From: Bacteroidaceae bacterium
GTDB lineage: Bacteria; Bacteroidota; Bacteroidia; Bacteroidales; Bacteroidaceae
Assembly: GCA_017560945.1 (NCBI GenBank)
Contig: JAFZDY010000003.1
Location: 1-37,306, forward strand
Length of the DNA stretch: 37,306 nt
Reading direction: 5' to 3'
The first letter of the stretch is position 1. The number at the start of each line of letters is the position of its first letter. A program made the translations under genes and the position numbers. The notes beneath the pieces are model-generated. The model had not been told where the DNA came from and did not search any database. It saw nothing but the letters and a program-made list of their open reading frames with translations. Below are positions 4,074 to 22,690 of the stretch, piece after piece.

Positions 4074-4097
4074 GAAGAAAGAGAGAGAGAAAAAAAG

Positions 4098-4880
4098 ATG
4101 ACCATAGACATCACATATTCAGGACTTGCCATAGGTATGTTGCTTCTGCTCGTACCCATCTATTTCCTTCATCGTTACAAGACGGGGTTGGTGAAGGCTA
4201 CCATAGTGGGAGCACTTCGCATGGTGGTGCAATTGTTCCTCATAGGTATGTACCTGAAGTACCTGTTCCTATGGGACAATCCATGGATAAACTTCCTGTG
4301 GGTGTTCATCATGGTGTACGTGGCTACCGAGACGGCACTTTCACGCACCCGACTCCGACGCGGCATATTGATGATTCCCCTCGCCATAGGATTTTTGGTG
4401 TCGGCCATCCTCGTAGGACTCTACTTCCTGGGCATTGTGCTCAAACTCGACAACATATTCGGAGCACAGTATATGATACCAATCTTCGGCATACTCATGG
4501 GCAACATGCTTTCGAGCAATGTGGTGGCACTCAATACGTTTTACTCAAACCTGGTGCGCGAGCAACAACTCTACTACTACCTGTTGGGCAACGGAGCGAC
4601 GCGACACGAGGCCATCTCGCCATTCGTTCGCGAAGCCATCATCAAGGCATTCAGCCCTGCCATTGCCAACATGGCGGTGATGGGACTTGTGGCATTGCCA
4701 GGTACCATGATTGGACAAATACTGGGAGGTTCGTCGCCCAATGTAGCCATCAAGTATCAGATGATGATCATTGTCATTACCGTGGCTGCCTCCATACTAT
4801 CGTTGATGATAACCCTGTGGTTGGGTGCACGAAAAACCTTTGACTCGTATGGATGTATCCGTCAAGTATTCAAGGAGTAA
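4098..4880 (+). CDS. fetB: ABC transporter permease, FetB (YbbM, UPF0014) family
   Basis: A 260-residue inner-membrane protein with about seven hydrophobic helices and little outside the membrane. The family-typical stretch GLVALPGTMIGQILGG followed by AIKYQMMI near residues 208-236 identifies it. The polar loop with GATRHEAISPFVREAI (about 165-185) is the likely coupling region facing the ATPase. It lies 24 bp after fetA and ends the two-gene operon. FetB is linked to iron efflux in E. coli; the substrate here is inferred. Confidence 0.82.
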   Translation: MTIDITYSGLAIGMLLLLVPIYFLHRYKTGLVKATIVGALRMVVQLFLIGMYLKYLFLWDNPWINFLWVFIMVYVATETALSRTRLRRGILMIPLAIGFLVSAILVGLYFLGIVLKLDNIFGAQYMIPIFGILMGNMLSSNVVALNTFYSNLVREQQLYYYLLGNGATRHEAISPFVREAIIKAFSPAIANMAVMGLVALPGTMIGQILGGSSPNVAIKYQMMIIVITVAASILSLMITLWLGARKTFDSYGCIRQVFKE

Positions 4881-5132: not shown

Positions 5133-6026
5133 ATGTCTATTGTAATCAAAAACCTAAATAAGGTGTATTCCAACGGACACCATGCCTTGAAGGATATCAA
5201 CTTGGAGATACCCTCGGGCATGTTTGGCTTGCTTGGGCCTAATGGTGCAGGAAAGAGTACACTTATGCGCATCCTGGTCGCTTTGATGGAGCCATCGAGC
5301 GGTGAGGTAGAAATGTATGGATGCAACCTGTTGAAGGAGCGCCGCGAAGTAAGACGTTTGTTGGGATATTTGCCACAGGACTTCCGCTTCTTTGCGAAGT
5401 ACAAGGTAATCGAGTATCTGGATTATGCTGCTCGTCTTTCAGGAATGGACGACAATCGGAAACGAAAGAAAGCCGTGGCAGACATGCTCGAGCAGGTAGG
5501 ACTATATGAAGTGCGCGAACGCTATGCATCCAAGTTATCGGGTGGTATGAAACGTCGATTGGGTATTGCGCAAGCATTGATTCACGAGCCCAAAGTGATT
5601 ATCGTAGACGAGCCTACAACAGGTCTTGACCCCGAGGAACGCATCCGATTCCGTAACCTCCTGACTCAGGTGAGTGGAAACGATATCACCATCATCCTAT
5701 CCACACACATCGTAGGAGACATCAGTAGTTCGTGTGTAAACATGGCTCTGTTGAACAAGGGTGAAGTATCCTTCAGAGGTTCACCTGAGGAGATGCTACA
5801 AAGAGCCGAAGGAAAGGTTTGGCGACTGACAGTAAGTAATGACGATTACAAGCAGATAAGTCGCGAATACCCCGTAATCTCTACCATCCCACGTGGACGT
5901 AAATGGGAAATTCAAGTGGTGGCTGATGAACTGAAAGGTTTTGAAGCCGAACAGTTCCCTCCCAATTTGGAGCACGCCTATGTGTACTTCATGGAGAACA
6001 AATTGGACTTGTGGATGAATGATTGA
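5133..6026 (+). CDS. ABC transporter ATPase, first gene of the hybrid ABC/RND cluster
   Basis: A 297-residue ABC-2-type ATPase. Motifs: Walker A GPNGAGKST (35-43, Lys41), Q-loop Gln82, signature LSGGM (135-139), Walker B VIIVDE (155-160) and His192 in the switch. Residues after about 215 form a C-terminal extension that ends in NLEHAYVYFME, as in drug- and lipid-export ATPases. Its permease follows with the next in-frame ATG 29 bp downstream. It is clearly paralogous to the ATPase part of the fusion gene at 15492-20186: both share GMFGLLGPNGAGKST, GLDPxERIRFRNLL, and a close match over STHI(V/I)xDIxSSC. It probably energises the permease at 6056; the substrate is unknown. Confidence 0.9.
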   Translation: MSIVIKNLNKVYSNGHHALKDINLEIPSGMFGLLGPNGAGKSTLMRILVALMEPSSGEVEMYGCNLLKERREVRRLLGYLPQDFRFFAKYKVIEYLDYAARLSGMDDNRKRKKAVADMLEQVGLYEVRERYASKLSGGMKRRLGIAQALIHEPKVIIVDEPTTGLDPEERIRFRNLLTQVSGNDITIILSTHIVGDISSSCVNMALLNKGEVSFRGSPEEMLQRAEGKVWRLTVSNDDYKQISREYPVISTIPRGRKWEIQVVADELKGFEAEQFPPNLEHAYVYFMENKLDLWMND

Positions 6027-6055
6027 AAACCTTAAAAAGAGAGAGAAAAGAATAT

Positions 6056-9000
6056 ATGACCTTTCTGAACAACATATTATCGGTAGCAAAATACGAATCA
6101 AAGTTACTTAAACGCAGTTGGTTCTTCAAAGTATTTAGTGTGCTATCTGTGTCGCTGATAGCGTTTGTATCGGTGACAATCATGCAAACACAAAAGTTTG
6201 CTTTCACTTGCATACCTTCAATGGCAGCCTATAACCTGATGCTCTACTTCAATGTAGCACAGGCCATTGTATCGATTTTCCTGGCTTCGGAATATCTAAA
6301 GCGCGACAAGCAATTGGATACATCCGAAGTTTTCTATGTACGTCCGCTGAGCAATGCTGAGTATTTGCTTGGCAAAATGTGGGGTACGATACAGGTATTC
6401 ATATTGCTGAACTTACTGGTAATGATAGTAGCACTGACCGTATGCTACATCTACATACCCGAGAGTGTGTCACCCCTCAGTTTCGTAATGTACTTCTTCA
6501 TCCTGAATCTACCTACGTTGATTTACATTATCGGTCTTAGTACATTGATGATGTTATTGGTGAAGAATCAGGCACTTACGTTTGTAATACTACTGGGATA
6601 CATCGGTCTTACCCTCTTCTACATTGGTGACAAATGTTACTACTTGTTTGACTACATAGGCTTCAACATCCCCTTGTTGGAATCTACAATCACAGGGTTT
6701 GCCGACCTTCAATCATTGATCGTTCACCGAGTGCTATATCTGTTGTTAGGTATAGGATTCATCCTGTGTAGCATCTCGCTTTTCCGTCGATTGCCCAACT
6801 CTCCTCGCGCTCTTTATCCATGGCGTGCGGCTGCTACCATCTTCTTGTTGGGTGGTTTTGCATGTGGAGGATATCACGTAAGCAGATACATACAGAAAGA
6901 GAACTTCCAACAAGAAATGATAGCGCTAAACAACCGCTATGCAAGTGATCCTAAGATGGAGATTGACTCGTGCTCAATAGAAGTGGTACAAAACAAAGAT
7001 GTGTTACACTTTGAGACCCACATTGTAGCAACTCCTGTAAAAAAGGCTTCGGTATTTACCTTCACACTTAACCCAGGTTTTGAAGTGAAATCGGCTACCA
7101 TGGAAGGTTCTCCATTGACATTCAAGAGAGAAAGCCACCTTCTGTGGTTAGAATTCCCCAAGGAGATAGCTGATGATGAAACTGTACGATTCACACTTGA
7201 GTATGAGGGAATTGCCGACGAGAGAATCTGCTACCTCTACATTCCTGAAGAGTTGTTGATTGAACAAGAAAAGTTCATGAATACATTCAATGTAGGGAAA
7301 CGCTATCTATATCAGACAGAGGACTATACATTGCTCACACCCGAATCATACTGGTATCCAAGACCTGGTGTATGTTATAGCGATGAAAATCCTGATTGGC
7401 AACAAAGTTATTTCACAAGTTTCCAAATGAATGTAAAACCAAATCCTGGTTTGGTAGCCATTTCACAAGGAGAAAGAACAATGAGCAACGACTCGATGAC
7501 CGTATCTTTCAAACCTGAATATCCGTTGCAATCGTTGTCTTTGATCATCGGACACTACAACGATGTATCTGTGGAAGTAGACAACACACTCTACTCTGTT
7601 TGGTACCTCGATGGACATGGCTCTTTCATAAATGAATTTACTCTCATCAAGGATACTATACCATCTATCATCAGAGACGTAAGATTTGATTACGAAGAAT
7701 TGGTGGAGATGGAGTATCCATTCAATCGATTCTCTATTGTGGAAACACCCGCACACCTTTCGAGTTACACACGTGCATGGACAGGTGCACAGGAGAAGAT
7801 GCAACCCGAAATGGTGCTGGTACCCGAGCGAATGTACAACAACTGGCGATTCAACATCAAAGGACTCAAAGAAAGCCGCAAATCCGAGAATCGTGGCGGA
7901 AGAGCACGTGGAGGAGGTGGCGGAAGACGTCAACAGAACATGACCGACGAGGAAATAGAAATGCAAATCTTCCGTGATATGCTTAGTTTCATGAGAGAAA
8001 CCAACGCGGGCATGAGTTTCCAAAGAGGTCAAATGGGACGTAATACTATCACCACAAAGGAGAGCCCTTATTACATCTTTGCACAGATGTACAACTTCAG
8101 ATACAACATTTACTCTACCGAGTGGCCAGTGGCTAACCGAATGATAGAACTGATGCTACAAGGCAATCAACAAACTAATAACTGGTTGAGAAATGTAAAT
8201 GGACTTAGCAATGATGAGAAGTCACTGATGTTGATGCAAAGATACTCATTCAAGGAGGTTCAAAACTTGACTGATCATCGTGATTTGCTGAACAATTTAA
8301 TTAAGTTGCAAGGCAAAAAACTTTTCCTCGATGCTGAGAGAAAGATGGGTGTGCAAGCATTCAAAGACACTTTGTTTGCTCACATCAAGACTAATGCATT
8401 CAAAAATCTTTCATTCGAGGCACTATTGGATACATTAGAAATGATTAGCCACACACAACTGAAGAATCAAATATCAGATTGGAATCACCCAACTGAATTG
8501 ACTGAATTCATGATAGGTACTCCCAGTGTTACCAAGATTGAGACTGAAACTATGGAGATTTATCAAGCAGAAATCATCATCTCCAACCTGTCTAATCAAC
8601 CTGGTAGCATCAATATGAAATTGGAATTCTGGTCAGAAGGTAATAATGGAAATTCCGATTATCAGATATTCGATGGTGAAGAAAAACCTGTTGAATGGAT
8701 TGTAGATTTCAAACCACACGAGACAAAACGTATCGTGACACATTGGGAAGAAAATCCTGGTACATTTATTATCAATACCCTCTTCTCTAAGAATCTGCCT
8801 GTACAAGTAACCTCTCGTAACCAACGAGTTGAGGAGGTTTACGTCCTTACTCCCGAAGGAGAATATACTTTGTCTGAGGACTTCATGTATGACAAAGAAG
8901 AAGTGATAGTAGACAATGAGGATGAAGCCCTATTCACTCTGTCCACACCTCCGCCTTCAGGATATTTGGGAGAATGGATTACCAAGGATAGTGAAGAAGA

Positions 9001-9436
9001 AGAGTTCAAATACATAGGTATTAGTGAGTGGCAAGCACCTGCCAGATGGACATCTACTACAGATCAAAACTACTACGGACGCTCTATACGTTCGGCTGTA
9101 CATATCCGCGCAGGAAAGGGTACTCAGTATGCCCAGTGGAAGATTCCCGTACCCAACGCTGGACGATACGAATTGTATTACCATGTACGTCGTCCTGAAC
9201 AATTGAGACGCGAAAATCGCTGGGGACGAATCAAGTACTTATACAATTTTACTGTTAAATCGGAAAATGACGATTACGAAGAGAAAGCAGAATTGGATAT
9301 GCGTAGAGCTGATGAAGGTTGGAATCTAATCGGCACCTATGGACTGACTGGAGATACGTTAATCGTAAGACTGACAGATAAAAGTGAACTGAATATGATA
9401 GCCGCTGACGCGGTAAAATTGGTGAAGAAGAATTAA
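6056..9436 (+). CDS. ABC permease with large periplasmic M1-peptidase-like and golvesin-like domains
   Basis: An 1126-residue protein. I chose ATG 6056 over the in-frame TTG at 6023, which overlaps the previous stop and adds 11 polar residues. Seven hydrophobic helices (about 24-43, 60-79, 108-134, 143-168, 172-190, 222-243, 257-275) form an ABC-2-like membrane part. The odd number places the remaining 850 residues in the periplasm. About 290-870 resembles the M1-aminopeptidase-like part of the Bacteroidetes 'permease/M1' proteins (for example YPFNRFSIVETP near 551), but no HEXXH zinc motif and no GxMEN motif is present, so it is probably not an active peptidase. A Gly/Arg-rich stretch lies near 605-625. 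About 986-1126 looks like a golvesin C-terminal-like beta-sandwich. It lies between its ATPase and a TolC gene. Confidence 0.8.
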   Translation: MTFLNNILSVAKYESKLLKRSWFFKVFSVLSVSLIAFVSVTIMQTQKFAFTCIPSMAAYNLMLYFNVAQAIVSIFLASEYLKRDKQLDTSEVFYVRPLSNAEYLLGKMWGTIQVFILLNLLVMIVALTVCYIYIPESVSPLSFVMYFFILNLPTLIYIIGLSTLMMLLVKNQALTFVILLGYIGLTLFYIGDKCYYLFDYIGFNIPLLESTITGFADLQSLIVHRVLYLLLGIGFILCSISLFRRLPNSPRALYPWRAAATIFLLGGFACGGYHVSRYIQKENFQQEMIALNNRYASDPKMEIDSCSIEVVQNKDVLHFETHIVATPVKKASVFTFTLNPGFEVKSATMEGSPLTFKRESHLLWLEFPKEIADDETVRFTLEYEGIADERICYLYIPEELLIEQEKFMNTFNVGKRYLYQTEDYTLLTPESYWYPRPGVCYSDENPDWQQSYFTSFQMNVKPNPGLVAISQGERTMSNDSMTVSFKPEYPLQSLSLIIGHYNDVSVEVDNTLYSVWYLDGHGSFINEFTLIKDTIPSIIRDVRFDYEELVEMEYPFNRFSIVETPAHLSSYTRAWTGAQEKMQPEMVLVPERMYNNWRFNIKGLKESRKSENRGGRARGGGGGRRQQNMTDEEIEMQIFRDMLSFMRETNAGMSFQRGQMGRNTITTKESPYYIFAQMYNFRYNIYSTEWPVANRMIELMLQGNQQTNNWLRNVNGLSNDEKSLMLMQRYSFKEVQNLTDHRDLLNNLIKLQGKKLFLDAERKMGVQAFKDTLFAHIKTNAFKNLSFEALLDTLEMISHTQLKNQISDWNHPTELTEFMIGTPSVTKIETETMEIYQAEIIISNLSNQPGSINMKLEFWSEGNNGNSDYQIFDGEEKPVEWIVDFKPHETKRIVTHWEENPGTFIINTLFSKNLPVQVTSRNQRVEEVYVLTPEGEYTLSEDFMYDKEEVIVDNEDEALFTLSTPPPSGYLGEWITKDSEEEEFKYIGISEWQAPARWTSTTDQNYYGRSIRSAVHIRAGKGTQYAQWKIPVPNAGRYELYYHVRRPEQLRRENRWGRIKYLYNFTVKSENDDYEEKAELDMRRADEGWNLIGTYGLTGDTLIVRLTDKSELNMIAADAVKLVKKN

Positions 9437-9471: not shown

Positions 9472-10980
9472 ATGCTACGACCTATCAAAAAAATGACATG
9501 TGCGATAGCAATCTTGTGCGGTAGCACCGGAATCTATGCACAATCGGGTGAATCGTCAGTAACTATGATGCTGACATTGGAAAAAGCCTTGGAATATAGC
9601 GTGGATCATAGCCCTGAATTGCAAGAGGCTTTGATCAATTTGGAGCGTTATAAACTGAGTTTGGAAGCCCAAAGGGCATCGTTAAAATCAAAGTTTGCAT
9701 TAACGCTAAATCCCTTTACGTATAGCAATAGCCGTACGTTCGATAATCGTTTCTCGCAATGGTATACCAATGAGTCCCTTTCATCAAACGGAACATTCAG
9801 TATTACTCAGCCTCTTATCTGGACGGATGCTACCGTATCATTGAACAACAAGTTTGGTTGGCAAAAAAATGTCAGCACAATGGATACTTCTAATGAGAAT
9901 AAAGCATTCAGTAATGACCTTTACTTGAGTATCAATCAGCCATTGTTTACCTACAACCGCACAAAGGTGAATTTGCAAAGTATTGAGTTCGATTATGAAA
10001 ATGCACTCATAAACTACGCATTGCGTCGACTGAGTCTTGAAAGTTCAATCACTTCATCTTTCTATAATGTATATACTGCTAAAAATAACTTAAGCATTAG
10101 TGAAGCAGAATTGAAAGACGCACAACAGAACTTTGAAATTATAAAGAACAAGGTAGATGCCGACCTATCTGCTCGAGGTGAACTATATCAGGCAGAGTTA
10201 AACGTGGCGCAGGCTGCCTCAACGGTGGACAACCGCAAAGTGTCATTGGAAAATGCAAAGGATGACTTGAAGAAGACATTAGGTATTGACATTGACCAAG
10301 AAATTGATGTGGAAGCTGAAATCAATGCAAAACCGGTAAAAGTGGATATGCTTACAGCGATAAATAGCGCATTAGGTTCTCGTCTTGAATTGAGACAACG
10401 CGAAATATCTCGTGTCGAATTAGATATTCAGATGAAACAGGTTAAGGAAACAAATAGTTTGGATGGTAATATTTCAATGTCACTCGGTATCATGGGTGAT
10501 AACGAAGAATTCCAAAGAATTTATGACCATCCGACCAACAATCCGAGAGTATCAGTTTCGTTAAGTGTTCCCATCTTCGATTGGGGTGAAAGAAGAGCTC
10601 GTATCAAAGCACAAGAATTACAATCTAAGATCTTTGATATGCAAACCGAAGAAGAGGAGAAAAGTATTGAAATCGCAGTTAGACGTAGTTGCCGTAGTTT
10701 GAAGAACTTGGAAACTCAGATGACGATTGCAGAGCAGAGTGTAAAAAATGCACAGTTGACCTACGATTTGAATGCTGAAAGATATCGTAATGGTGAGTTG
10801 ACAGGTATGGAGATGAACCAATTCCAAACTCAGCTTTCAAACCAAAAGATGTCTTATGTATCAACAATAATCAACTACAAGTTAGAGTTGCTCAACTTAA
10901 AGATTATCTCCTTGTACGACTTCGAAAATGACACACCTATTGTACCAATGAGTGTCATCCCCGAAGACGATCAAAAATAA
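9472..10980 (+). CDS. TolC-family outer-membrane efflux channel
   Basis: A 502-residue outer-membrane factor with a signal peptide ending near residue 24 (IYAQ). It shows the family's two-fold repeat of long amphipathic helices: LTLEKALEYSVDHSPELQEA (about 34-53) opens the first half, and heptad-rich segments surround IEIAVRRSCRSLKNLETQ in the second. Alternating beta-strand segments such as LTLNPFTYSNSRTF fit the outer-membrane barrel. It starts 35 bp after the permease gene and precedes the adaptor and RND genes, so it probably forms the exit duct for the RND pumps, and perhaps for the ABC modules too. Confidence 0.9.
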   Translation: MLRPIKKMTCAIAILCGSTGIYAQSGESSVTMMLTLEKALEYSVDHSPELQEALINLERYKLSLEAQRASLKSKFALTLNPFTYSNSRTFDNRFSQWYTNESLSSNGTFSITQPLIWTDATVSLNNKFGWQKNVSTMDTSNENKAFSNDLYLSINQPLFTYNRTKVNLQSIEFDYENALINYALRRLSLESSITSSFYNVYTAKNNLSISEAELKDAQQNFEIIKNKVDADLSARGELYQAELNVAQAASTVDNRKVSLENAKDDLKKTLGIDIDQEIDVEAEINAKPVKVDMLTAINSALGSRLELRQREISRVELDIQMKQVKETNSLDGNISMSLGIMGDNEEFQRIYDHPTNNPRVSVSLSVPIFDWGERRARIKAQELQSKIFDMQTEEEEKSIEIAVRRSCRSLKNLETQMTIAEQSVKNAQLTYDLNAERYRNGELTGMEMNQFQTQLSNQKMSYVSTIINYKLELLNLKIISLYDFENDTPIVPMSVIPEDDQK

Positions 10981-11043: not shown

Positions 11044-12102
11044 ATGAAACAGAATAATATCCTTCCCGCAATAATTTTCGCTTCCATGCTGATGACCGCA
11101 TGTGGAAATGAACAAGCAGGTAGCACCGTAGAGTTGGCTTCACCCGTATCTGTTACAGAGGTAGAATATAGTAACATTAGAAAATACAATAGCACAAGTG
11201 GTACAGCTTTGGCTAATGCCGAAATAGAGTTGACATCTGAAATGGCTGGTGAGTATAACTTGATGATCAACCCCCGTACTAACAAGCCTTTCAAATTGGG
11301 TGACAAGGTAATGGCTGGTGAAACTATTGTGAAGTTGACTAACCAATCATACGAAAACGATATTGCTATTGACTCTAAGAAGTTATCATTGGAGATTGCA
11401 GAGCAAGACAAAGTCAATAAACTCGCACTTTACGAAAAGGGTGGTGTAACACAGAGCGAAATACGTAACGCAGAAGTTACCATCACAAATGCAAAGTATA
11501 GTTATGAGAATGCTCAAATTAACTTGGAAAAAATGAGCATTAAGGCTCCGTTCACTGGTGTCATTGTGAATTTGCCTCACTACACAAAGAATGTACAATT
11601 GTCATCAGGTTCAAGCATAGTATCAATCATGAGTTACGAGGAGATGATTATGGAAATCAATCTTCCTGAGAGTGCCATTGGTGAAGTTGTAGAAAATCAG
11701 GAGGTAGTTATTACACATTACACTCTGCCCCGTGATACTATCAATGGTATCATCAGCGAATTGTCACCTGCAATTAGCCCCGAAACACGTACCTTCAAGG
11801 GAAAACTTCTCATTGATAACAAGGATTTGAAATTGCGTCCTGGTATGTTTGTTAAGGCCGACATTGTGGTTGATGAAGCAGAAAATACCATTGTTATCCC
11901 GAAGGAAATCGTGATGAACAATCGTAATAGAAAGTCAGTATTCGTGGTTGATCGTGGTGTAGCACGTCAAGTAAACATCCGTACAGGATTGGAAGACCAG
12001 GACAACATCGAAGTATTGGAAGGTTTGAGTTTGCATGATATGTTAGTCACAAGAGGTTATGAAACACTCCGTGATGGTAGCAAGGTGAAGATTCAAAAGT
12101 AA
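11044..12102 (+). CDS. RND periplasmic adaptor (membrane fusion) lipoprotein
   Basis: A 352-residue HlyD/AcrA-type adaptor that would bridge an inner-membrane pump and the TolC-like channel. The lipobox LMTAC places the lipidated cysteine at residue 20. A split biotinyl-lipoyl-like domain is visible: KLGDKVMAGETIVKL, then a short helical hairpin (about 100-160) and MSIKAPFTGVIVNL. Beta-barrel (PRDTINGIISELSPAI) and membrane-proximal (IVIPKEIV, VFVVDRGVA) domains follow. The helical hairpin is short, which fits an outer-membrane partner reaching deep into the periplasm. It lies 63 bp after the TolC gene and 109 bp before the RND gene. Confidence 0.9.
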   Translation: MKQNNILPAIIFASMLMTACGNEQAGSTVELASPVSVTEVEYSNIRKYNSTSGTALANAEIELTSEMAGEYNLMINPRTNKPFKLGDKVMAGETIVKLTNQSYENDIAIDSKKLSLEIAEQDKVNKLALYEKGGVTQSEIRNAEVTITNAKYSYENAQINLEKMSIKAPFTGVIVNLPHYTKNVQLSSGSSIVSIMSYEEMIMEINLPESAIGEVVENQEVVITHYTLPRDTINGIISELSPAISPETRTFKGKLLIDNKDLKLRPGMFVKADIVVDEAENTIVIPKEIVMNNRNRKSVFVVDRGVARQVNIRTGLEDQDNIEVLEGLSLHDMLVTRGYETLRDGSKVKIQK

Positions 12103-12211: not shown

Positions 12212-15200
12212 ATGAAAAAACTAATAAAATTAGCTGTCAATAATCAGGTCACTATCCTCATGATAGTATTGGCTATTGGGTTATTGGGCAAAATATCATA
12301 CGACAAGTTAAGCGTTGACTTGTTGCCCGATTTGAACAATCCAAAATTGTTCGTAGAAATCAATGCTGGTGAAAGACCACCTGAAGAAATTGAAAAACAA
12401 TTTGTGGAGAGAATGGAAGCAATGGCCATTCGCCAACAAGATGTAGTAGGGGTGTCATCCATCATCAGAGCGGGTAGTGCTCAGATGACGGTGGAGTATT
12501 CTTGGAACAAAGATATGGATGAAGCTTTCTTGGATTTACAGAAAGCAATGAATAGTTTTGTACAAGACGATGCAATCAGTGAGTTGCAAATTACTCAAAA
12601 TGATCCCAATACCGATCCTATCATGTTGGTAGGTATGAGCCATTCGTCTATTACCAATATGGCCGAATTGCGCAAGGTTGCTGACTCGTACGTACGAAAT
12701 GAATTGGTACGTATTGAAGGTGTAGCAGACGTGGTATTGTCAGGAGATGAGGTAAGTAATCTTGTAATCAAGACCAATCCTTATAAGTTAGACGCTTTTG
12801 GCTTGGATATCAATTCACTTTCTTCTAAGATACAGGAAGAGAACCAACGTATTAGTGGAGGACGTGTAACAGAGATGGGTACTCAGTACATCGTTAGTGG
12901 TGTGAATATGCTCAACTCTGAGGAAGATTTCGGAGATATCATTGTAGGATACAAGGAGACTGAAGCCAGTGGTGGAGGTGTTGCCGTAAGTTCCGAATTT
13001 GCTGCCATCAGCAGAGCCCCCATCTATATGAGAGATGTGGCAGAAATCTACTTTGAAAATGAAGAACCCGAAAATATTGTACGAATCAACGGACAACGTT
13101 GTATTGGCTTGGCCGTTTACAAAGAGATGCGTTACAATACAGTACATGCCGTTTCTGGAGTAACTGAGCGTCTGGAAGTTATTCAGAAGGCATTGCCCGG
13201 ATATCATTTTGATATAGTAAGCAACCAAGGAACCTTCATCAACGAGTCTATCGGAGAAGTAAAGAATAGTGCCGTATTGGGTGTATTCCTTGCGGTTATT
13301 GTACTTTATCTATTCCTTCGTCGCATTAAGGTGACACTCATCATTTCATTGGCAATTCCTATCTCTATCATTGCTACATTCAACTTGATGTTCTTTGGTG
13401 GACTAACCCTCAATATCATGACATTGGGTGGATTGGCATTAGGAGCAGGTATGCTTGTCGATAATGCGATAGTCGTGATTGAAAGTATCTTCCGTAATCA
13501 GGAAAACGGATTATCACTCAAGGATTCAGTCATACAGGGTACAAGCGAGGTTGGTAGTGCCATTATAGCCTCTACATTGACTACTATTGTAGTATTCTTA
13601 CCTATTGTATATCTCCAGGGAGCCTCAGGAGAGTTATTCAAGGATCAGGCTTGGACTGTTACATTCTCGTTACTTTCTTCACTCTTTGTAGCTATCCTGG
13701 TTATACCTACTTTGTATGAGCGTATATTCAGAAAGAGCGAAGGAAAAGATAAGACCTCAAAGGTAGTAGTTCCCCAAGAGCCAGCTTCAGAAGGAAAGTT
13801 AGTCACAACATACGCTGGCATACTCAATAAGGTCCTCAATAAACGTTGGATGGTAGTTTGCGTATCAATCCTTTTGGTTGTCGGTTCATATATGTTGATA
13901 CCTGTTATTGGAGCAGAGTTCATGCCTAAAGCAGAGGGCAATTCATTCAACATCAGTGTAAAGATGAACGAAGGAACTCGTCTTGAACGCACCTCTGCAA
14001 CAGTAGAAGGAATTGAAAACCTCATTTTTGAAATCACTCAAGACTCTTTGTGTACAATATATAGTCACATTGGTCCTGGAGGAAGTACAGGTGGTAGCAT
14101 TTTCGATGGTGAAAACACCGCAAACATGAAGGTTATTCTCTCTCCTGAATCAAAATACACTCCTGAGGCATTGATTGAGCAACTCTATGTTCACACTCAG
14201 GGTATTGATGGATTGGAACTCTCTTTCTTGCAAGAAGACAATACCTTAGGTTCTTTGATGGGTACTGAAGGTGCTCCTGTAGTCATTGAAATTAAGGGAG
14301 AAGAGTTGGATGAAATAACCAGAATTGCTGCAGATGTTACCACACGTGCAGAACAGATACCTGGATTGTTCAACGTAACCAATGCCATTGAAGATGGTGC
14401 TCCTGAAATGATCTTGACTGTCAACCGTGCCATTGCAAGCATGAATAATCTGAATGTTAGCACCATTGTTTCTCAAATCCAACAACAACTTTCAGGAATC
14501 AGTGCTGGACAAATGGACTACAAGGGAGAAATGAGAAACATTATGATTAAAGTCCCCGAAATCACATTGTCACAATTTGACAATATGATTATTACCAGTG
14601 GAGGACAAAGTTTCCGTTTGACAGAGTTGGTAAGCATCCGTCAAGATGTTGCTCCCAAAGAGATTTATCGTCGTAACCAGAGCCGTATAGCCAAGGTAAC
14701 TGCCAATCTCGAAGAGGGATACTCGTTGAGTGAGGTAGCATCTGTGATTCGTGAAACATTAAAGGATTATGATCTTCCTGTCAACTATTCAATCAATGTC
14801 ACTGGTGAAGAAGAAATGCGTCAAGAGTCCATGGGCGGATTGATATTAGCTTTGGTTCTCTCTGTCATATTGGTATACATGGTGATGGCTTCACAATTCG
14901 AGTCATTATTGCATCCGTTCACCATTTTGTTGACCATTCCTTTGGCATTGGTAGGTGCCATTTGGTTATTCTTCATCACAGGTACGACCATCAACATTAT
15001 GGGTGTCATCGGTATCATCATGCTTTGTGGTATAGCTGTAAATAACTCCATCATTTTGGTCGATCGTATCAATCAGATTAAGGATGGTTACAACAATCTT
15101 TCGGATGCGATTGTAGCAGCTGCAAGCCAACGTATACGCCCCATTTTGATGACCAGTTTCACCACTATTTTGTCTTTGCTTCCCATGGCCATTGCATTTG

Positions 15201-15343
15201 GTGACGGTGCTTCTTTGCGTGCACCCATGGCCATTGCTGTTATTGGTGGACTCACCACCTCTACGGCGCTCAGCTTAATAGTTATACCCTGTGTTTACTT
15301 CCTTATGGAGCAGATGAAGAACAGGATATCAAAGAAAGGATAA
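12212..15343 (+). CDS. RND efflux permease (HAE/AcrB-like)
   Basis: A 1043-residue inner-membrane pump of typical RND length: 12 predicted helices and two large periplasmic loops (about 30-335 and 560-865). The TM4 motif GMLVDNAIVVIES carries Asp417, equal to AcrB Asp407, but Asn418 where AcrB has Asp408. In TM10, Asn944 in GIAVNNSIILVD replaces AcrB Lys940. This reduced relay is common in RND pumps of the SwrC kind, so ion-driven transport is still expected. There is no metal-pump (HME) signature. It may form homotrimers, or mixed trimers with the next gene's RND part, as MdtB and MdtC do; that is inference. Confidence 0.9.
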   Translation: MKKLIKLAVNNQVTILMIVLAIGLLGKISYDKLSVDLLPDLNNPKLFVEINAGERPPEEIEKQFVERMEAMAIRQQDVVGVSSIIRAGSAQMTVEYSWNKDMDEAFLDLQKAMNSFVQDDAISELQITQNDPNTDPIMLVGMSHSSITNMAELRKVADSYVRNELVRIEGVADVVLSGDEVSNLVIKTNPYKLDAFGLDINSLSSKIQEENQRISGGRVTEMGTQYIVSGVNMLNSEEDFGDIIVGYKETEASGGGVAVSSEFAAISRAPIYMRDVAEIYFENEEPENIVRINGQRCIGLAVYKEMRYNTVHAVSGVTERLEVIQKALPGYHFDIVSNQGTFINESIGEVKNSAVLGVFLAVIVLYLFLRRIKVTLIISLAIPISIIATFNLMFFGGLTLNIMTLGGLALGAGMLVDNAIVVIESIFRNQENGLSLKDSVIQGTSEVGSAIIASTLTTIVVFLPIVYLQGASGELFKDQAWTVTFSLLSSLFVAILVIPTLYERIFRKSEGKDKTSKVVVPQEPASEGKLVTTYAGILNKVLNKRWMVVCVSILLVVGSYMLIPVIGAEFMPKAEGNSFNISVKMNEGTRLERTSATVEGIENLIFEITQDSLCTIYSHIGPGGSTGGSIFDGENTANMKVILSPESKYTPEALIEQLYVHTQGIDGLELSFLQEDNTLGSLMGTEGAPVVIEIKGEELDEITRIAADVTTRAEQIPGLFNVTNAIEDGAPEMILTVNRAIASMNNLNVSTIVSQIQQQLSGISAGQMDYKGEMRNIMIKVPEITLSQFDNMIITSGGQSFRLTELVSIRQDVAPKEIYRRNQSRIAKVTANLEEGYSLSEVASVIRETLKDYDLPVNYSINVTGEEEMRQESMGGLILALVLSVILVYMVMASQFESLLHPFTILLTIPLALVGAIWLFFITGTTINIMGVIGIIMLCGIAVNNSIILVDRINQIKDGYNNLSDAIVAAASQRIRPILMTSFTTILSLLPMAIAFGDGASLRAPMAIAVIGGLTTSTALSLIVIPCVYFLMEQMKNRISKKG

Positions 15344-15491: not shown

Positions 15492-18400
15492 ATGAAATTC
15501 ATCATAACGAGAAAGATTACAATCTGCATGTTGTTTATAGCACTATCCATGCTTGGATATGTGTCTAATAAACTGTTATATGTGGAAATGCTTCCCAATG
15601 CAGAATTGCCGATGCTATATGTTCAGGTATCTTCCCGCCAAGATGTGAACCCGGCATACATGGAGTCTCAAGTTATCATTCCTTTGGAGGGAGTCGTAAG
15701 TACCATCGAAGGAGTGGAGCGCATCGAGTCCGAGGCTGGAAACCGAAGTGGTCGTTTGCGCGTAGACTTCAACAAGGGAATGAACTTGAAGTACACCATC
15801 TTAAAGTTACAAGAAAGGGTAAACAATATAATACCATCTTTACCTGAAGGATTTACTGTAACCATTGAAAAAGCCAATGTAACCGGTGTTAACAACAACT
15901 TTATGACTCTGCAAGTACGTGGTTCTGGTGGAGTGGATCGTTTGCGCAGTTTGGTTGATAAAGAGTTGAAGCCTCAGTTGGAAAATATCGATGGTATAGC
16001 AGCAGTTAATGTCTATGGTGGACGTGAGAAAGCTATCGAGATACGTGTAAACGAGGCTGCTTTGACCTCGCTCAACATCACTCCCTCTCGTATCAGCCAG
16101 ATGCTCTCTCAGTACAATCAGGAGCGTACCTTCTTGGGGTATGTCAACGAACCCGATTTGCGCTATTTTGTCCATCTCGATGCCAACTACGACCACATTT
16201 CTGAAATTGAAAATGTGATTGTAGCACCAGGTCCTGTATACTTGAAGGATATCGCCACCATCTTCTTTGACTTGAAGGATGAGACAACCTTGAGCCGTGT
16301 CAATGGTAAAGAGGCTATCTCTGTCACATTGGTTAACGATGCCCAAACCAATCTATTGGAACTCTCCAATAGAGCCAAGGCACGCATCGCCCAATTAAAC
16401 GAGGAGTTCATGCCACAAGATATCGAGATGGTTATCCAGTCCAACTCGGCTGACACCATTGAGGATAACATCAATCAAGTCATTGAGTTAGGTGTGAGTG
16501 GAGGTATTTTGGCCATCATTATTCTTTGGTTCTTCTTGCACAATATCCGTTTGGTATTGTTCATTGCACTCTCTATCCCTATCTCCATATTGGCGGCATT
16601 CAATCTATTCTACACCTTTGATATCTCCATCAATAGCCTTACCCTCATAGGTTTGGCGTTGGCTGTGGGTATGTTGTTGGACAATAGTATAGTCGTCTTG
16701 GAGAACATATACCGGCTCACGTCATTGGGTAAGACACCAGAAGAAGCTGTCATTCAAGGTACTCGCGAAGTATGGAAATCCATTTTTGCTGCTACCTTGA
16801 CCACCATCACCGTATTCTTACCTTTCCTTTTCTCCGACGAAGTATATGTCAAGTTAATAGGTGAGCACATCGGTGTATCTATCATTTCTACTTTGCTCTT
16901 CTCATTGGTGGTGGCCCTGTTATTCATCCCCATGACCACCTATGTGATGTTGAAGCGAGGCCATGGTAAGAGTGTTTTCCACGAAAAATTCTCCATCAAC
17001 GAGCGTCCTATACAGATTTATACTGTCATATTGAAGACTTGTTTGCGCAATCCTGCAGCAGCTATTGTAGGATGTGTAGTAGTACTTGTAGGTACACTTA
17101 TGATAGCACTTTCTCAAAACTCCGATGCAGGCCGTACGGTCAACACCGATCGTGTGACCATGACAGTCACTATGCCTCCCAATAGTTCATTGGAGTACTC
17201 CGAGAAGATTGTGAATCTGCTCGAATCCAAACTTGATAGTTTCCCCGAGAAGGAAGACGTCATTAGCCGTATTGCTGAAGATGAAGCCTCCATTACTGTT
17301 ACTTTACAAGAGGGCTATCATGAGAACGGAGGACGTAACATTTCAGAAATCATCTCTGACTTGAATCATCGTATGCGTATACCTAATGTCTATACCCGCA
17401 TTACTGCTGGTACATCCACTCAAGAGCAGAGTGGGGCAGCAACGGCTATGCAGGGCTTTATGGACTTGTTGGGAGTAGGCGACAATAGCGAGCGCATCGT
17501 CATCAAGGGTTCTGACTTTGATATGATGGACGTCATTGCCAGTGACATTCGTTACTATTTAGGTGAGATGGATTTCATTGGTTCAACATGGGCTACCAAT
17601 CCTGGTCGTCGTCGCGAGATTCACCTTACGTTCGATCCCATCACATTGGCTTCGTACGAAATCTCACGTCAGAACATCACTACTGCCCTCAATTCACTTG
17701 GTCGTGAGCTCAGCACAGGTACCAATCTCAAGTTGGGAGCCGATGAGTATGAGATTGTAATTAAGGAAGACCTCACAGAGGAGCAGGAAAAGAAGATACA
17801 GAATACTCCCAAGACTGTTGATGATTTGCGCAAGATTATGGTTGAAGATGCCAATGGTGGCTTGCACGAGTTGGCCTCTTTGGCCTCTATCAAGTACACC
17901 CGCGACATCTCTCGCATCAATCGTGTCAATCGTGATCGTCAGATAACTATCACTTACACCATTGACCAGAGTGAAAACCTTCCCAAGGATGTATTGGAAG
18001 GCTATCGTGACGAGGTTGACCAACTGATTGCTGGATACAATCTGCCCAGTGGTATAGCCATTCAGGTTGATCGTAGCAACGAGTCTATGGGCGAGTTCAA
18101 GTTCCTCATCATCGCTTCGCTTGTCCTCATATACATGATATTGGCTTCTGTATTCCAGTCGCTTAGCACACCCTTTGTGTTGCTCTTCACCATACCTTTG
18201 GCAGCTATCGGTTCATTGTTGGGCTTGCTCATCACTGGCAATCCCCTTCAGAATGCCAACACCCTCACAGGTTTCCTCATTCTGTTAGGTGTAGTAGTGA
18301 ACAATGGTATTATCCTTATCGACTATGCCAACATTCTCCGTAAGCGTGGATATGGTCGTCATCGTGCCCTTATCACCAGTGGATTCTCACGTTTGCGTCC

Positions 18401-20186
18401 TATCCTCATCACCACCATCACTACCGTCATCGCTATGCTTCCTATGGCCATGGGCGATACCGACTATGCTGGTGCCATTGGTGCTCCGTTTGCCATTACC
18501 GTCATCGGAGGTCTCACCTTCTCGGCAGTGCTCACATTAGTGATGATTCCTACCGTATATCTTTCTATGGAGAACATCCTTCGTTGGTATCGTTCACTCA
18601 GTCGTCCCATGCATCTGCTTCATGCGGCCATCTTTGTGTTGGGTCTGTTCTACATCTATACGAAGGTAGATGGCATCTTCATTCAGTTGTTATACCTGCT
18701 TGTACTCATATGCCTCATTCCTGGTTGTACCTACTTCATCATGAGTTCTATCCGATTGGCCAACATTCGCGTAATTGACAAGGATGAACCCATTCGCATT
18801 GAAGTACGCAATCTGGTAAAGATCTACGACCGTGCCCCATTATTTGAACGTCAGTGGGTGAGTGGTCTCAAGATTCGTCGCCGTTTGGGTCTCGACCGCA
18901 AGTTCCATCAGTTGGGAGACTTCCTCCCCATCTTGTGGCAAGTAGTTGTATTTGCATTCTTCGGCTACATGGCAGCATTCTACCTCGATAGCATCTTCTG
19001 GATTCTCGTCATGACCCTCACAGTCAGTGCCGGAGTATACCACATCTGGGGTATGGTACGTAGTTACATCGGATACCGCATTCCTGCTAAGAAGAAGTTG
19101 CTCAGCATCATCCATCGTGTAGTCTATTTTGCCATCCCAGTACTCACCATCTGGTTCCTCCATTATCGTGGCATAAGTTCATCAGGCATCATTGTTATGT
19201 CAGCCGTATGGGCTCTGGGTATAGCCATCAGTCTTACTTCGGCCTATATCTATGACAATAATATCAATGTGGAGCGCCTCACAGGACGTTTTGCCGAACT
19301 TCGACGCACATGGTTCATCCTGGTAAAGAGCATTCCTATCATTGGTCATCGTCGCAACCCCTTCAAGGCACTGCGTGGTGTATCATTTGAGATTAAGACA
19401 GGTATGTTCGGTCTTTTAGGTCCCAATGGTGCAGGTAAGTCTACTATGATGCGTATCATCACAGGTATCCTCGACCAGAGTTACGGTACCATCCGTATCA
19501 ATGGTATGAATACCCTTGAGTACCGTGAGGAGTTGCAGAGCCTCATCGGTTTCCTTCCACAGGAGTTCGGTATGTACGAGTATATGACCGCTTGGGACTT
19601 CCTCGACTATCAAGCCATCCTGAAGGGTATTACCGATAACGATGTCCGCCGTGAGCGTCTCGAGTACGTGCTCAAGTCAGTTCATATGTACGAGCGTCGC
19701 GATCACAAGATAGGCTCCTTCTCAGGAGGTATGAAGCAGCGTGTCGGCATTGCACTCATCCTGCTTCATCTGCCCCGTATCTTGGTAGTGGATGAACCTA
19801 CAGCAGGTCTTGACCCACGTGAGCGTATACGTTTCCGTAATCTGTTGGTAGAACTCAGTCGCGAGCGCATCGTCATCTTCTCTACCCACATTATCGAGGA
19901 CATTGCCAGTTCATGTAACCAGGTAGTCGTCATCAACCGTGGTAACCTGAAATACTTCGGCGAACCTATGGATATGATTCGTATGGCTGAAAACAAGATA
20001 TGGTCCTTCACCGTCAGCACTTCCGAGTTATCACAACTCGATACCCGTCTGGTAGTAAACAACATGATGGAGAACGACCGTGTACGTGTTCGCTACATCT
20101 CTATAGAGAAGCCGCCGTATTCCGATGCCGTACAAGTTGAAGCCAACTTGGAAGACGCTTATTTGTGTTTATTAAAAGATATGTAA
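15492..20186 (+). CDS. RND permease-ABC ATPase fusion protein
   Basis: One uninterrupted frame of 1564 residues. About 1-1030 is a complete RND permease: TM4 GMLLDNSIVVLEN with Asp397/Asn398, TM10 GVVVNNGIILID with Asn937, and two periplasmic loops. Two extra helices follow (about 1041-1060 and 1066-1088). IRIEVRNLVKIYDR (1101-1114) then looks like the first strand and A-loop Tyr1112 of an ABC ATPase. The fold resumes only at FKALRGVSFEI (1291 onward), after four predicted helices (about 1145-1167, 1168-1190, 1206-1226, 1232-1255). The ATPase core is intact: Walker A GPNGAGKST 1310-1318 (Lys1316), signature SGG 1411-1413, Asp1434-Glu1435, His1466. Even helix counts keep the ATPase in the cytoplasm. 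A small ABC-2 permease follows 25 bp later. The function is unknown; it may be an ATP-assisted RND pump. Confidence 0.88.
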   Translation: MKFIITRKITICMLFIALSMLGYVSNKLLYVEMLPNAELPMLYVQVSSRQDVNPAYMESQVIIPLEGVVSTIEGVERIESEAGNRSGRLRVDFNKGMNLKYTILKLQERVNNIIPSLPEGFTVTIEKANVTGVNNNFMTLQVRGSGGVDRLRSLVDKELKPQLENIDGIAAVNVYGGREKAIEIRVNEAALTSLNITPSRISQMLSQYNQERTFLGYVNEPDLRYFVHLDANYDHISEIENVIVAPGPVYLKDIATIFFDLKDETTLSRVNGKEAISVTLVNDAQTNLLELSNRAKARIAQLNEEFMPQDIEMVIQSNSADTIEDNINQVIELGVSGGILAIIILWFFLHNIRLVLFIALSIPISILAAFNLFYTFDISINSLTLIGLALAVGMLLDNSIVVLENIYRLTSLGKTPEEAVIQGTREVWKSIFAATLTTITVFLPFLFSDEVYVKLIGEHIGVSIISTLLFSLVVALLFIPMTTYVMLKRGHGKSVFHEKFSINERPIQIYTVILKTCLRNPAAAIVGCVVVLVGTLMIALSQNSDAGRTVNTDRVTMTVTMPPNSSLEYSEKIVNLLESKLDSFPEKEDVISRIAEDEASITVTLQEGYHENGGRNISEIISDLNHRMRIPNVYTRITAGTSTQEQSGAATAMQGFMDLLGVGDNSERIVIKGSDFDMMDVIASDIRYYLGEMDFIGSTWATNPGRRREIHLTFDPITLASYEISRQNITTALNSLGRELSTGTNLKLGADEYEIVIKEDLTEEQEKKIQNTPKTVDDLRKIMVEDANGGLHELASLASIKYTRDISRINRVNRDRQITITYTIDQSENLPKDVLEGYRDEVDQLIAGYNLPSGIAIQVDRSNESMGEFKFLIIASLVLIYMILASVFQSLSTPFVLLFTIPLAAIGSLLGLLITGNPLQNANTLTGFLILLGVVVNNGIILIDYANILRKRGYGRHRALITSGFSRLRPILITTITTVIAMLPMAMGDTDYAGAIGAPFAITVIGGLTFSAVLTLVMIPTVYLSMENILRWYRSLSRPMHLLHAAIFVLGLFYIYTKVDGIFIQLLYLLVLICLIPGCTYFIMSSIRLANIRVIDKDEPIRIEVRNLVKIYDRAPLFERQWVSGLKIRRRLGLDRKFHQLGDFLPILWQVVVFAFFGYMAAFYLDSIFWILVMTLTVSAGVYHIWGMVRSYIGYRIPAKKKLLSIIHRVVYFAIPVLTIWFLHYRGISSSGIIVMSAVWALGIAISLTSAYIYDNNINVERLTGRFAELRRTWFILVKSIPIIGHRRNPFKALRGVSFEIKTGMFGLLGPNGAGKSTMMRIITGILDQSYGTIRINGMNTLEYREELQSLIGFLPQEFGMYEYMTAWDFLDYQAILKGITDNDVRRERLEYVLKSVHMYERRDHKIGSFSGGMKQRVGIALILLHLPRILVVDEPTAGLDPRERIRFRNLLVELSRERIVIFSTHIIEDIASSCNQVVVINRGNLKYFGEPMDMIRMAENKIWSFTVSTSELSQLDTRLVVNNMMENDRVRVRYISIEKPPYSDAVQVEANLEDAYLCLLKDM

Positions 20187-20211: not shown

Positions 20212-20904
20212 ATGAATCCACTTATCACAACCTCTTCATTCAATTTGAAGATTATCTTTGGCGGACGTTTCTTGTGGTTTCTGCTCACCAGTTTTCTGCT
20301 TTTTGCCTACTTCGTATGCAGCAGTTTGTGGAAGGGCGAGTTACCGACAGACGAGATGATGTACTCCCACCTTTTCTTCCCAGCCCTGTTGTTGGTGTTC
20401 TATCCTGCCACGTTCGGCATACAGAACGATGCTGACAACCGCATCCTCGAGATTCTGTTCGGAATACCTGGATACATGTATAAGGTATGGCTCGCACGCC
20501 TTGTGCTCATCTACATGATTGTTTTCGTCATGCTGATAGTTTACTCCCTGGTGGCTTACATCTTGGTGTTCCCTGTCAGCCCGTTGGATATGGCCTATCG
20601 TCTCATGTACCCCGTACTCTTTATGGGAGGCCTTGCCTTTTACTTCTCCACTGTCACTCGCAATGGTAATGCCACAGCCCTGCTCATCATCATCCTTGGC
20701 ATCGGCATCATCTTCTTGCGCGACTCATTCTTGCGTGACACCATGTGGGATATCTCTCTCAATCCCTACCGTTTGCCAGACGATATCCATCCAGTCATCT
20801 GGAGTAGCACTGTCATGAAGAACCGCCTTTTCCTCATTATTGGAGCCTTGGTAACCACATTGTTGGCCTTGCTCAATCTGCAGAAGAGAGAGAATTTCAT
20901 CTAA
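20212..20904 (+). CDS. ABC-2-type permease, last gene of the hybrid cluster
   Basis: A 230-residue membrane protein with six hydrophobic helices (beginning near residues 20, 46, 92, 130, 154 and 204) and almost no soluble part. The order of a short N-terminal amphipathic stretch, six helices and a short basic tail matches ABC-2 permeases. It begins 25 bp after the RND-ABC fusion, so its natural ATPase partner is the fused one. It may instead pair with the ATPase at 5133 and the permease at 6056 to give an asymmetric channel. It ends the operon; a strong terminator lies 52 bp downstream. Confidence 0.75.
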   Translation: MNPLITTSSFNLKIIFGGRFLWFLLTSFLLFAYFVCSSLWKGELPTDEMMYSHLFFPALLLVFYPATFGIQNDADNRILEILFGIPGYMYKVWLARLVLIYMIVFVMLIVYSLVAYILVFPVSPLDMAYRLMYPVLFMGGLAFYFSTVTRNGNATALLIIILGIGIIFLRDSFLRDTMWDISLNPYRLPDDIHPVIWSSTVMKNRLFLIIGALVTTLLALLNLQKRENFI

Positions 20905-21113: not shown

Positions 21114-21792
21114 GCAAATTCAACTTTTAAATGCAACGGAATTGTCGGTTTGAGATAATTTCAGTGAGCAGAGAGGAAAATCTCCTCCCATGCTCTACTG
21201 AATGGGGAAAAAGTGGTTACTTTACAGCCTCAAACCTCCTACCGAAATCAGTTGTAAAGATGAAACACTTAACCCGAGAGCAAAGGTACGGAATTTCTTT
21301 GATGTTACAAGAAGGAAAGAGCAGAAAAGATATATAGCCAAGGCCATAGGTGTGAGCACCAGTACCATCAATGACAGGCTTACTTCTAAGGTGTGGATTC
21401 GAGAGCTTTCGGGGAAAGATGTCGCCTCGTTAGCATTGAAGGCCATTGAAACGTTGCAGCCTATAAAGGATTTGATACATACAATAACGGCAGACAATGG
21501 AAAAGAATTTGCAAAACATCAGGAAATAGCAGAGAAATTGGAAATTTCTTTCTATTTTTGCAAACCCTACCATTCTTGGGAACGTGGCGCCAATGAGAAC
21601 ACCAACGGACTCATTAGGCAATACATACCCAAAGGAACGGACTTCTGTGAGATAACAGATGAGTTTGTCAGATGGGTTGAGAACAAACTGAACAATAGAC
21701 CCAGAAAGAAACTTGGTTACCTCACGCCAAATGAGAAATTTAATTTAATATTAACAAATTAGAATTCGATTGCATTTGTAAGTTGAATTCGC
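21114..21792 (+). mobile_element. Remnant of an IS30-family insertion sequence
   Basis: Imperfect 30-bp terminal inverted repeats lie at 21114-21143 and 21763-21792. They share AATTCAACTT, AAATGCAA and GAATT blocks, matching at 25 of 30 positions. The enclosed 679 bp is well short of a complete IS30-type element (usually about 1-1.2 kb) and holds a broken, internally deleted transposase gene. I could not define a target-site duplication. Confidence 0.75.
21260..21762 (+). pseudogene. Truncated, frameshifted IS30-type transposase
   Basis: The start at 21260 reads MKHLTREQRYGISLMLQEGK, a helix-turn-helix N-terminus typical of IS30 transposases. The frame then stops at 21335. It would continue as AKAIGVSTST in another frame, as if a TA unit had been added in GATATATAGCC near 21330. 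After STINDRLTSK the middle of the protein is missing, including the first catalytic Asp. The C-terminal rve part survives: TADNGKEFAKH, KPYHSWERGANENTNGLIR and NNRPRKKLGYLTP. No active enzyme is expected. Confidence 0.85.
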
Positions 21793-22563: not shown

Positions 22564-22690
22564 GAGAATTAGGGGACCCCATCCCTTACCTTCCCCTCTA
22601 TGGGAAGGAGTGGATAGATTTTGTTATTACTTTAATTACTGTTCATCACATTTTACTCCTCCCTGTGAAGGGGTAGTGGGGAAGGTTTGA
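22564..22690. repeat. Dispersed-repeat material between murU-like and amgK-like genes
   Basis: CCCCATCCCTTACC and CCCCTCTATGGGAAGGAGTG near 22576-22613 recur, complete or in part, in the ATP synthase operon (for example CCCCTCTATGGGAAGGAGTG near 33730 and CATCCCTTACC near 32913). An inverted relative, CCCTGTGAAGGGGTAGTGGGGAAGG near 22661-22685 split over two parts, runs into the 3' end of the kinase gene and supplies its last dozen codons. Confidence 0.5.

Follow-up and report, generated by a model that had tools for sequence, protein, structure and literature searches.

Introduction

Large exporters are classed by their source of energy: pumps of the resistance-nodulation-division (RND) type are usually powered by ion gradients, and ATP-binding cassette (ABC) pumps by ATP. 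On the RND side, MdtBC is reported in two papers to be active as MdtB2C (PMC7015380, PMC12802153). On the ABC side, a third paper describes MacAB-TolC as an ABC transporter that works with an adaptor and a TolC channel (PMC8277102). Here we describe a gene that encodes an RND permease and an ABC ATPase in one chain, found in a 37,306-nucleotide stretch of DNA from a Bacteroidaceae bacterium (GenBank assembly GCA_017560945.1, contig JAFZDY010000003.1, positions 1 to 37,306, forward strand; hereafter the window). The same fused gene lies in the same pump gene set across several phyla, which marks it as genuine and of long standing and makes it worth a test as a two-engine exporter.

A single open frame holds an RND permease and an ABC ATPase

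The preliminary description of this DNA had claimed a single open frame of 1564 residues, and we could confirm it: the gene is uninterrupted from its ATG over positions 15492..20186 of the forward strand. The residues singled out there (D397, N937, K1316, S1411-G1412-G1413, E1435 and H1466) all carry the numbers it had given them. The domain search that it had proposed found both halves above their Pfam cut-offs, with ACR_tran at residues 2-1025 (E 7.6e-161) and ABC_tran at 1294-1438 (E 9.6e-26). Scores against NCBIfam models stayed below cut-off, at 464.6 bits for RND_permease_2 (cut-off 1250), 180.1 for GldA (402.6) and 169.4 for drrA (312.45), the last two being scores of the fused ATPase. 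Hereafter, RND2 and NBD2 (NBD, nucleotide-binding domain) denote the RND part and the ABC domain of the fusion, and RND1 and NBD1 the unfused RND permease and ABC ATPase of the same gene set. TM stands for transmembrane.

15492..20186, forward strand: RND2::NBD2 fusion, 1564 aa, open from ATG
15492..18572, forward strand: RND2 part, residues 1-1027 (ACR_tran 2-1025)
16680-16682 and 18300-18302, forward strand: D397 and N937 of RND2
18621..18761, forward strand: first extra TM hairpin, residues ~1044-1090 (hydropathy, single sequence and alignment-averaged)
18792..18827, forward strand: displaced ABC strand 1 and A-loop, residues 1101-1112, with Tyr1112 (NBD1 first-strand profile)
18828..19352, forward strand: membrane insert within the ABC domain, residues ~1113-1287 (A-loop/Walker A spacing, hydropathy)
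19353..20183, forward strand: ABC core, residues 1288-1564, with K1316, Q1357, SGG 1411-1413, D1434, E1435 and H1466, each kept in 62/62 fusions

The fusion occurs in four phyla and is maintained by selection

The profile used to search for homologues covered only the linker (residues 1028-1300), a region that ordinary RND or ABC proteins should not match. The survey of proteins of the same architecture, also proposed at the outset, yielded 62 fusions in four phyla, 6 of them partial and no pair more than 95% alike; weak matches in genomes G134 (153 aa, with a stop), G741 and G1221 were left out of the counts. In the window's order the linker was matched in 53 of 393 genomes, 52 of them convincingly; the remaining one is the G134 fragment. 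A sample of the phylum gave 7 matches in 395 genomes, namely the window's genome and G140 (already counted), the new G489, G583, G541 and G768, and the weak G741. A scan of named genomes added at least six fusions among the 80 loci listed; among those matches are an uncultured Proteiniphilum, Parabacteroides massiliensis SN4, a Carboxylicivirga metagenome-assembled genome (MAG), two Bacteroidales MAGs and a Latescibacterota MAG, whose copy is a 1443-aa frame running off both contig ends.

Further samples, each assigned the phylum of its seed locus record, contained the fusion in 2/16 genomes of Latescibacterota (seed genome included), 1/121 of Gemmatimonadota and 7/119 of Acidobacteriota, three of the last having weak linker scores but full-length matches to the fusion profile. 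The single match among 329 Pseudomonadota genomes was weak and lay in a 326-aa frame, which is not a fusion; none was found in 149 Planctomycetota genomes, an empty answer that by itself shows nothing. No plasmid record contains the linker. The genome searches score few candidates per genome (6 or 7 in the searches of the order, of Pseudomonadota and for the permease PERM described below), so that absences are soft. Within the window's genus the fusion occurs in 4 of 14 other genomes and is therefore patchy. In the RND trees the copy from Gemmatimonadota falls within those from Bacteroidota, and it may have been transferred or mis-binned.

Among the first 60 relatives searched, six full-length homologues in other assemblies share 91, 91, 85, 84, 68 and 48% identity with the window's protein. 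Parabacteroides massiliensis SN4 encodes a 1592-aa fusion in one frame on a 1.94 Mb contig, and G1013 a divergent 1595-aa fusion on a contig of 5.985 Mb; the partial homologues in G047, G050, G058 and G018 are split at contig ends. The ratio of nonsynonymous to synonymous change (dN/dS) between the window and its nearest relatives, L009 and L010, is 0.03-0.06 in each of the three parts (RND, linker and ABC), with synonymous change near saturation; comparison with L011 and L012 gives 0.03-0.10 wherever dS is unsaturated. Since the ratio is low in all three parts, the entire frame, linker included, is selected as protein. The catalytic ABC residues checked (A-loop Tyr, Walker A, Q-loop, signature, Walker B Glu and H-loop) are each kept in 62/62 fusions across the four phyla, and the first TM4 Asp of RND2 in all 59 readable fusions.

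Two outcomes that the preliminary description had set against its own proposal were examined and neither occurred: homologues in many assemblies, long contigs and low dN/dS in three parts rule out an assembly chimaera or a frameshift join, and a decayed ATPase is ruled out by the 62/62 conservation. In one acidobacterial locus (G955, L205 8999-9476), the first ~79 fusion residues were matched in a different frame from the remainder.

Transmembrane helices split the ABC domain

In NBD1, the A-loop Tyr lies 23 residues before Walker A (21 rows measured); in the fusions this distance is 131-247 residues (n=53), and in the window it is 198. A profile of the first strand of NBD1 found its best place in the linker at the position of residues 1101-1112 in 53/53 fusions, with a score that was reached by 11 of 10600 shuffles. 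An insert of ~175 extra residues divides this strand from the remaining domain, and the Pfam ABC_tran match begins only after it. Hydropathy indicates ~4 TM helices in the window's insert; loci L107 (14655-16079) and L108 (14754-16244) have a shorter one, apparently with one TM hairpin (two helices) instead of two. None of the 62 aligned fusions, among them the acidobacterial and Latescibacterota copies, lacks the A-loop Tyr or the insert. The predicted order of hairpin, strand, two more hairpins and core would keep all pieces of the ABC domain cytoplasmic. The ATPase had been called complete, which holds for its motifs, all of which are present; it does not hold for their continuity, because the membrane insert separates the A-loop strand (1101-1112) from Walker A (1310-1317). 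The fusion provides a naturally occurring example of an ABC domain that membrane helices divide.

Both RND subunits have an altered ion relay

RND2 had likewise been described as a complete permease. It is full length, but two residues of ordinary HAE-1 pumps, the second Asp of TM4 and the Lys of TM10, are missing: D397 aligns with the first Asp of the MdtB TM4 pair, and the other two positions are both occupied by Asn. Among 59 readable rows, the TM4/TM10 pattern of RND2 is DN/N in 53, DT/N in 4, DC/N in 1 and DS/N in 1; of the 52 rows of RND1, 51 are readable, 49 with DN/N and 2 with DN/S. Judged by its sequence, then, RND2 is complete in length and altered in its ion relay.

For comparison, we examined 50 other RND genes of related genomes, hand-picked from the relatives' matches (10 from examined loci and 40 others) and not a random set; DD with K or R was read in 39 and DN/N in 2, the other 9 having a different pattern or not being fully readable. 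The two DN/N genes sit among DD/K kin, beside a channel and an adaptor gene, and the surrounding 14.6 and 19.9 kb gave no match to the ABC1 or PERM profiles of the gene set below. A DN/N relay unique to the RND-ABC system is ruled out by these two genes, and, the paired change having arisen elsewhere, it is no proof of lost ion coupling.

The fusion belongs to a fixed set of seven genes

In the window the fusion is the sixth of seven genes on one strand. The other six are listed below.

5133..6026, forward strand: ABC1 (NBD1), stand-alone ABC ATPase, 297 aa (ABC_tran E 4.5e-31)
6023..9436, forward strand: BIG, ABC-2-type permease with an M1-aminopeptidase-like domain without HExxH and a Golvesin_C-type domain (1004-1134)
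9472..10980, forward strand: TolC-like outer-membrane channel, 502 aa (OEP E 1.8e-40)
11044..12102, forward strand: periplasmic adaptor (RND_mfp), 352 aa (HlyD_D23 E 6.3e-18; TIGR01730 RND_mfp 173.4 bits, over its cut-off of 94.9)
12212..15343, forward strand: RND1, unfused RND permease, 1043 aa, TM4 DN, TM10 N (ACR_tran E 6.8e-212)
20212..20904, forward strand: PERM, probable ABC-2-type permease, 230 aa (coupling-helix-like segment 73-97, Glu80)

The order ABC1, BIG, channel, adaptor, RND1, fusion, PERM is identical, on one strand, in 37 of 48 loci, two of which come from one genome (G058). Ten of the remaining loci are cut by contig ends; in the other, L029 (2585-5985, genome G012), BIG is in two overlapping frames of 700 and 479 aa, by frameshift, assembly error or true split. 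All seven genes are present in the Gemmatimonadota locus L209, and the acidobacterial L212 has ABC1, BIG, adaptor, RND1, fusion and PERM in order. The same six genes occur in the acidobacterial L205 and L207, with ABC1-BIG divergently transcribed and adaptor-RND1-fusion-PERM together; the stretches examined of L210 and L211 are too short to show ABC1. In L207 (2355-5910), BIG is two genes, for an ABC-2-type membrane protein (764 aa) and a separate Golvesin_C-type protein (419 aa). No conserved neighbour was found in the few kb of flank, the best cluster covering 4 of 51 loci. Scans for promoters and terminators gave fewer sites than shuffles and were not used.

PERM and the fusion occur together. 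Of the 393 genomes sampled from the window's order, the PERM profile matches 52, the very ones that carry the fusion; in one of them (G133) the two genes are on different contigs. The profile was built from the fusions' own neighbours, so that more distant permeases could have been missed. PERM of the window has no Pfam match, nor does its L205 orthologue; among 46 orthologues (E ≤0.1), ABC2_membrane_3 was found in 5 (best 3e-5) and ABC2_membrane_2 in 3, and the G1013 orthologue matches ABC2_membrane_2 with E 5e-6, just under the gathering score. Glu80 of the coupling-helix-like segment of PERM is conserved in 46/46; we take a coupling helix with a conserved Glu to be an ABC-2 signature.

Of 41 ABC1 rows, one of them truncated, 40-41 retain each of Walker A, Q-loop, signature, Walker B Glu and H-loop. 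BIG is listed from a TTG, and the ATG at codon 12 (6056) may be its real start. Hydropathy predicts TM segments between residues 32 and 258, and Glu102 of the coupling helix is kept in all 42 readable of 44 rows. Among 41 BIG orthologues (Pfam E ≤0.01), Golvesin_C was matched in 41, ABC2_membrane_2 in 25 and Peptidase_M1 in 12; the window's own protein matches Golvesin_C only. None of 44 rows (three are fragments) has HExxH at the M1 site, and none of four acidobacterial BIG frames contains the motif; one off-site match occurs in L032 at residue 885. An active M1 peptidase is ruled out by the 44 rows, and the M1-like part of BIG is unlikely to be a peptidase.

Three features of the flanks were noted. 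An IS30-type transposase fragment (21202-21762, 186 aa, model positions 151-267 of 267) lies just downstream of the operon. A single frame on the reverse strand (22636-24177) encodes both an APH-type phosphotransferase domain and a RapZ C-terminal domain. At 3435-4880, an ABC ATPase gene is followed by one for a UPF0014 membrane protein, resembling a FetAB-type pair; among the loci examined, the two were seen together beside the operon only in L028 and L029.

The two ABC domains and the two RND subunits form separate clades

NBD1 and the fused ABC domain share 42% identity. GldA and DrrA are the top-scoring ABC models for both, with GldA the best NCBIfam model of NBD1, below its cut-off; the solved chains nearest to the fusion's C-terminal profile are ABCA7, ABCA4 and ABCA1. 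In quick trees made without bootstrap, NBD2 forms one clade (SH-aLRT, a Shimodaira-Hasegawa-like approximate likelihood-ratio test, 100) and NBD1 a second (92); the group around them includes ten further ABC domains. This tree had 80 rows and included 25 of the 62 fusions; L206, L210, L211 and L212 were left out of it though they are in the residue counts. A recent origin of the fused domain as a copy of ABC1 is not supported, the two clades standing apart amid the ten other domains.

RND1 and RND2 each form one clade, with matching deep splits, and together they stand apart from 15 diverse other RNDs (99). The solved chain nearest by sequence to both is MdtB (9lyq for RND2). These relationships fit one ancient fusion and an in-operon pair of RND subunits like MdtB/MdtC.

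Discussion

From the fusion and the genes around it we infer a seven-gene, two-engine, envelope-spanning exporter, in which a heterodimeric ABC-2 exporter would be covalently tied to a heteromeric RND tripartite pump; we give this proposal about an even chance. In it, NBD1 and the fused NBD2 would pair as a heterodimer, carried by a likewise heterodimeric membrane unit made of the N-terminal TM domain of BIG and of PERM. RND1 and RND2 would form a mixed trimer, probably with one fused RND2 per trimer if the 2:1 ratio of MdtB2C is a guide, and the adaptor and the TolC-like channel would link this trimer to the exterior. Such a trimer would hold exactly one NBD2, matching one ABC heterodimer. 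ATP hydrolysis would move an amphiphilic substrate from the cytoplasm or the inner leaflet to the periplasmic side, where the catalytically dead M1-like and golvesin-type domain of BIG would present it, and the RND trimer would push it out across the outer membrane. With NBD2 in the RND2 chain, the ABC exporter would be held against the RND pump. The hint of an amphiphilic substrate comes from the ABCA lipid exporters, the nearest solved relatives of the C-terminal profile.

The gene set itself supports this proposal: it encodes a pair of ABC ATPases and a pair of ABC-2-type permeases, and in both permeases the coupling-helix-like segment has an invariant Glu. The preliminary description had suggested that the ATPase drives the neighbouring 230-residue permease while anchored to the RND trimer. 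The partnership is well supported, given the shared 52 of 393 genomes, the consecutive genes in the 37 complete loci and the invariant Glu80; as an account of the system it is incomplete. Because the set holds a second ABC ATPase, a second ABC-2-type permease and a second RND, a heterodimeric ABC module with a heteromeric trimer seems likelier than a lone ATPase-permease pair.

Several points weigh against the two-engine exporter. Neither RND subunit has the usual Asp/Lys relay pair, so that gradient-driven export is not to be taken for granted. The heterodimer and the 2:1 trimer would follow known systems by analogy. PERM is weakly recognised from its sequence as an ABC-2 permease: Acyl_transf_3 was matched in 3 of the 46 orthologues with a best E-value of 7.1e-6, below any ABC-2 value among the 46, and a profile comparison of PERM with BIG gave E 0.067, too weak to count. 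Moreover, no channel gene was recognised in the five acidobacterial loci L205, L207, L210, L211 and L212, and PERM of L211 was matched at 21 bits only.

The strongest alternative, which we nonetheless regard as unlikely, turns the ABC module into a mechanical regulator or motor, as ABC modules are in MacB and FtsEX: ATP turnover would act on the hairpins and on the periplasmic domain of BIG to open or reset the RND trimer, partly replacing the ion relay. The TM hairpins inside the ABC domain tie NBD2 to RND2 in a geometry suited to moving membrane helices, and in the 393 genomes neither a fusion without PERM nor PERM without a fusion was found. Both permeases, however, keep the coupling helices of transporters. 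The relay bears on this alternative in both directions, since the two RND subunits have DN and N instead of DD and K in most rows, but two of 50 other RND genes are DN/N with no ABC1 or PERM match nearby, and the pattern alone does not demonstrate a switch to ATP. That the RND part has given up standard proton-driven operation, with ATP driving or licensing its cycle by way of the fused and membrane-interrupted ABC domain, seems to us rather improbable. Were it true, the fusion would be the first case of an RND machine that draws its energy from an ABC engine within its own chain, and it would define a class of transporters not wholly primary and not wholly secondary.

We think it quite improbable that the RND part merely anchors a separate exporter, in which an NBD2 homodimer would drive PERM while NBD1 and BIG form a transporter of their own. 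Such a tether is consistent with the adjacency and co-occurrence of NBD2 and PERM and with the separate ABC1-BIG transcription unit of L205 and L207. Yet the seven genes travel together in 37 complete loci, one ATPase and one permease of each kind argue for a mixed dimer, and the RND trimer would probably need two NBD2 domains side by side. To an artefact of assembly or annotation, or a decaying one-off fusion, we give practically no credence: some homologues are split, though at contig ends, and the start of the L205 fusion lies in another frame, but 62 fusions in four phyla, none more than 95% alike, with long contigs, purifying selection and invariant motifs, already refute it.

For the two-engine exporter and its alternatives, an old family that joins ABC and RND with the ATPase residues intact and the RND relay changed allows dual or shared energy coupling to be tested directly. 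Parabacteroides massiliensis SN4 offers a named species with an isolate genome for such study. Databases probably annotate such fusions simply as RND permeases, which would hide the ATPase.

We found no description of an RND-ABC fusion in open-access full text, the scope of our search. None is described in the accessible portions of PMC8277102, PMC7997004, PMC4754349 and PMC6447562, and the fusions in the corresponding portions of PMC4754349 and PMC6447562 are engineered RND-adaptor constructs. The components of the present system come from known families; their joined split-domain architecture and the fixed seven-gene set appear to be undescribed in the searchable literature.

Among known systems, MdtABC and MuxABC resemble the window's set in having two homologous RND subunits and an adaptor in one operon. 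No ABC part is described for MdtABC in the available text, and here one RND carries a C-terminal split ABC domain. MdtB has the second Asp and the Lys, according to PMC12802153 and the alignment, and RND1 and RND2 lack both. The likeness to ABC-2, or type V, exporters (GldA-DrrA-like ATPases and ABCA lipid exporters) lies in the best models of NBD1 and NBD2, GldA and DrrA, and in the ABC-2-type permeases; in contrast to these exporters, NBD2 is RND-fused and TM-interrupted, and a dead M1-like and a golvesin-type domain are attached to one permease. MacAB-TolC shares the use of an adaptor and a TolC channel by an ABC transporter, but the window's set encodes an RND pair with an ABC module, and we know of no RND part in MacB. 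Related genomes also contain RND matches in open frames of ~1448-1475 aa, which we take to be the CusA-TolC (CusA-OEP type) fusions of Bacteroidota. Those would join two parts of one ordinary pump, whereas the fusion in the window joins two energy-coupling systems.

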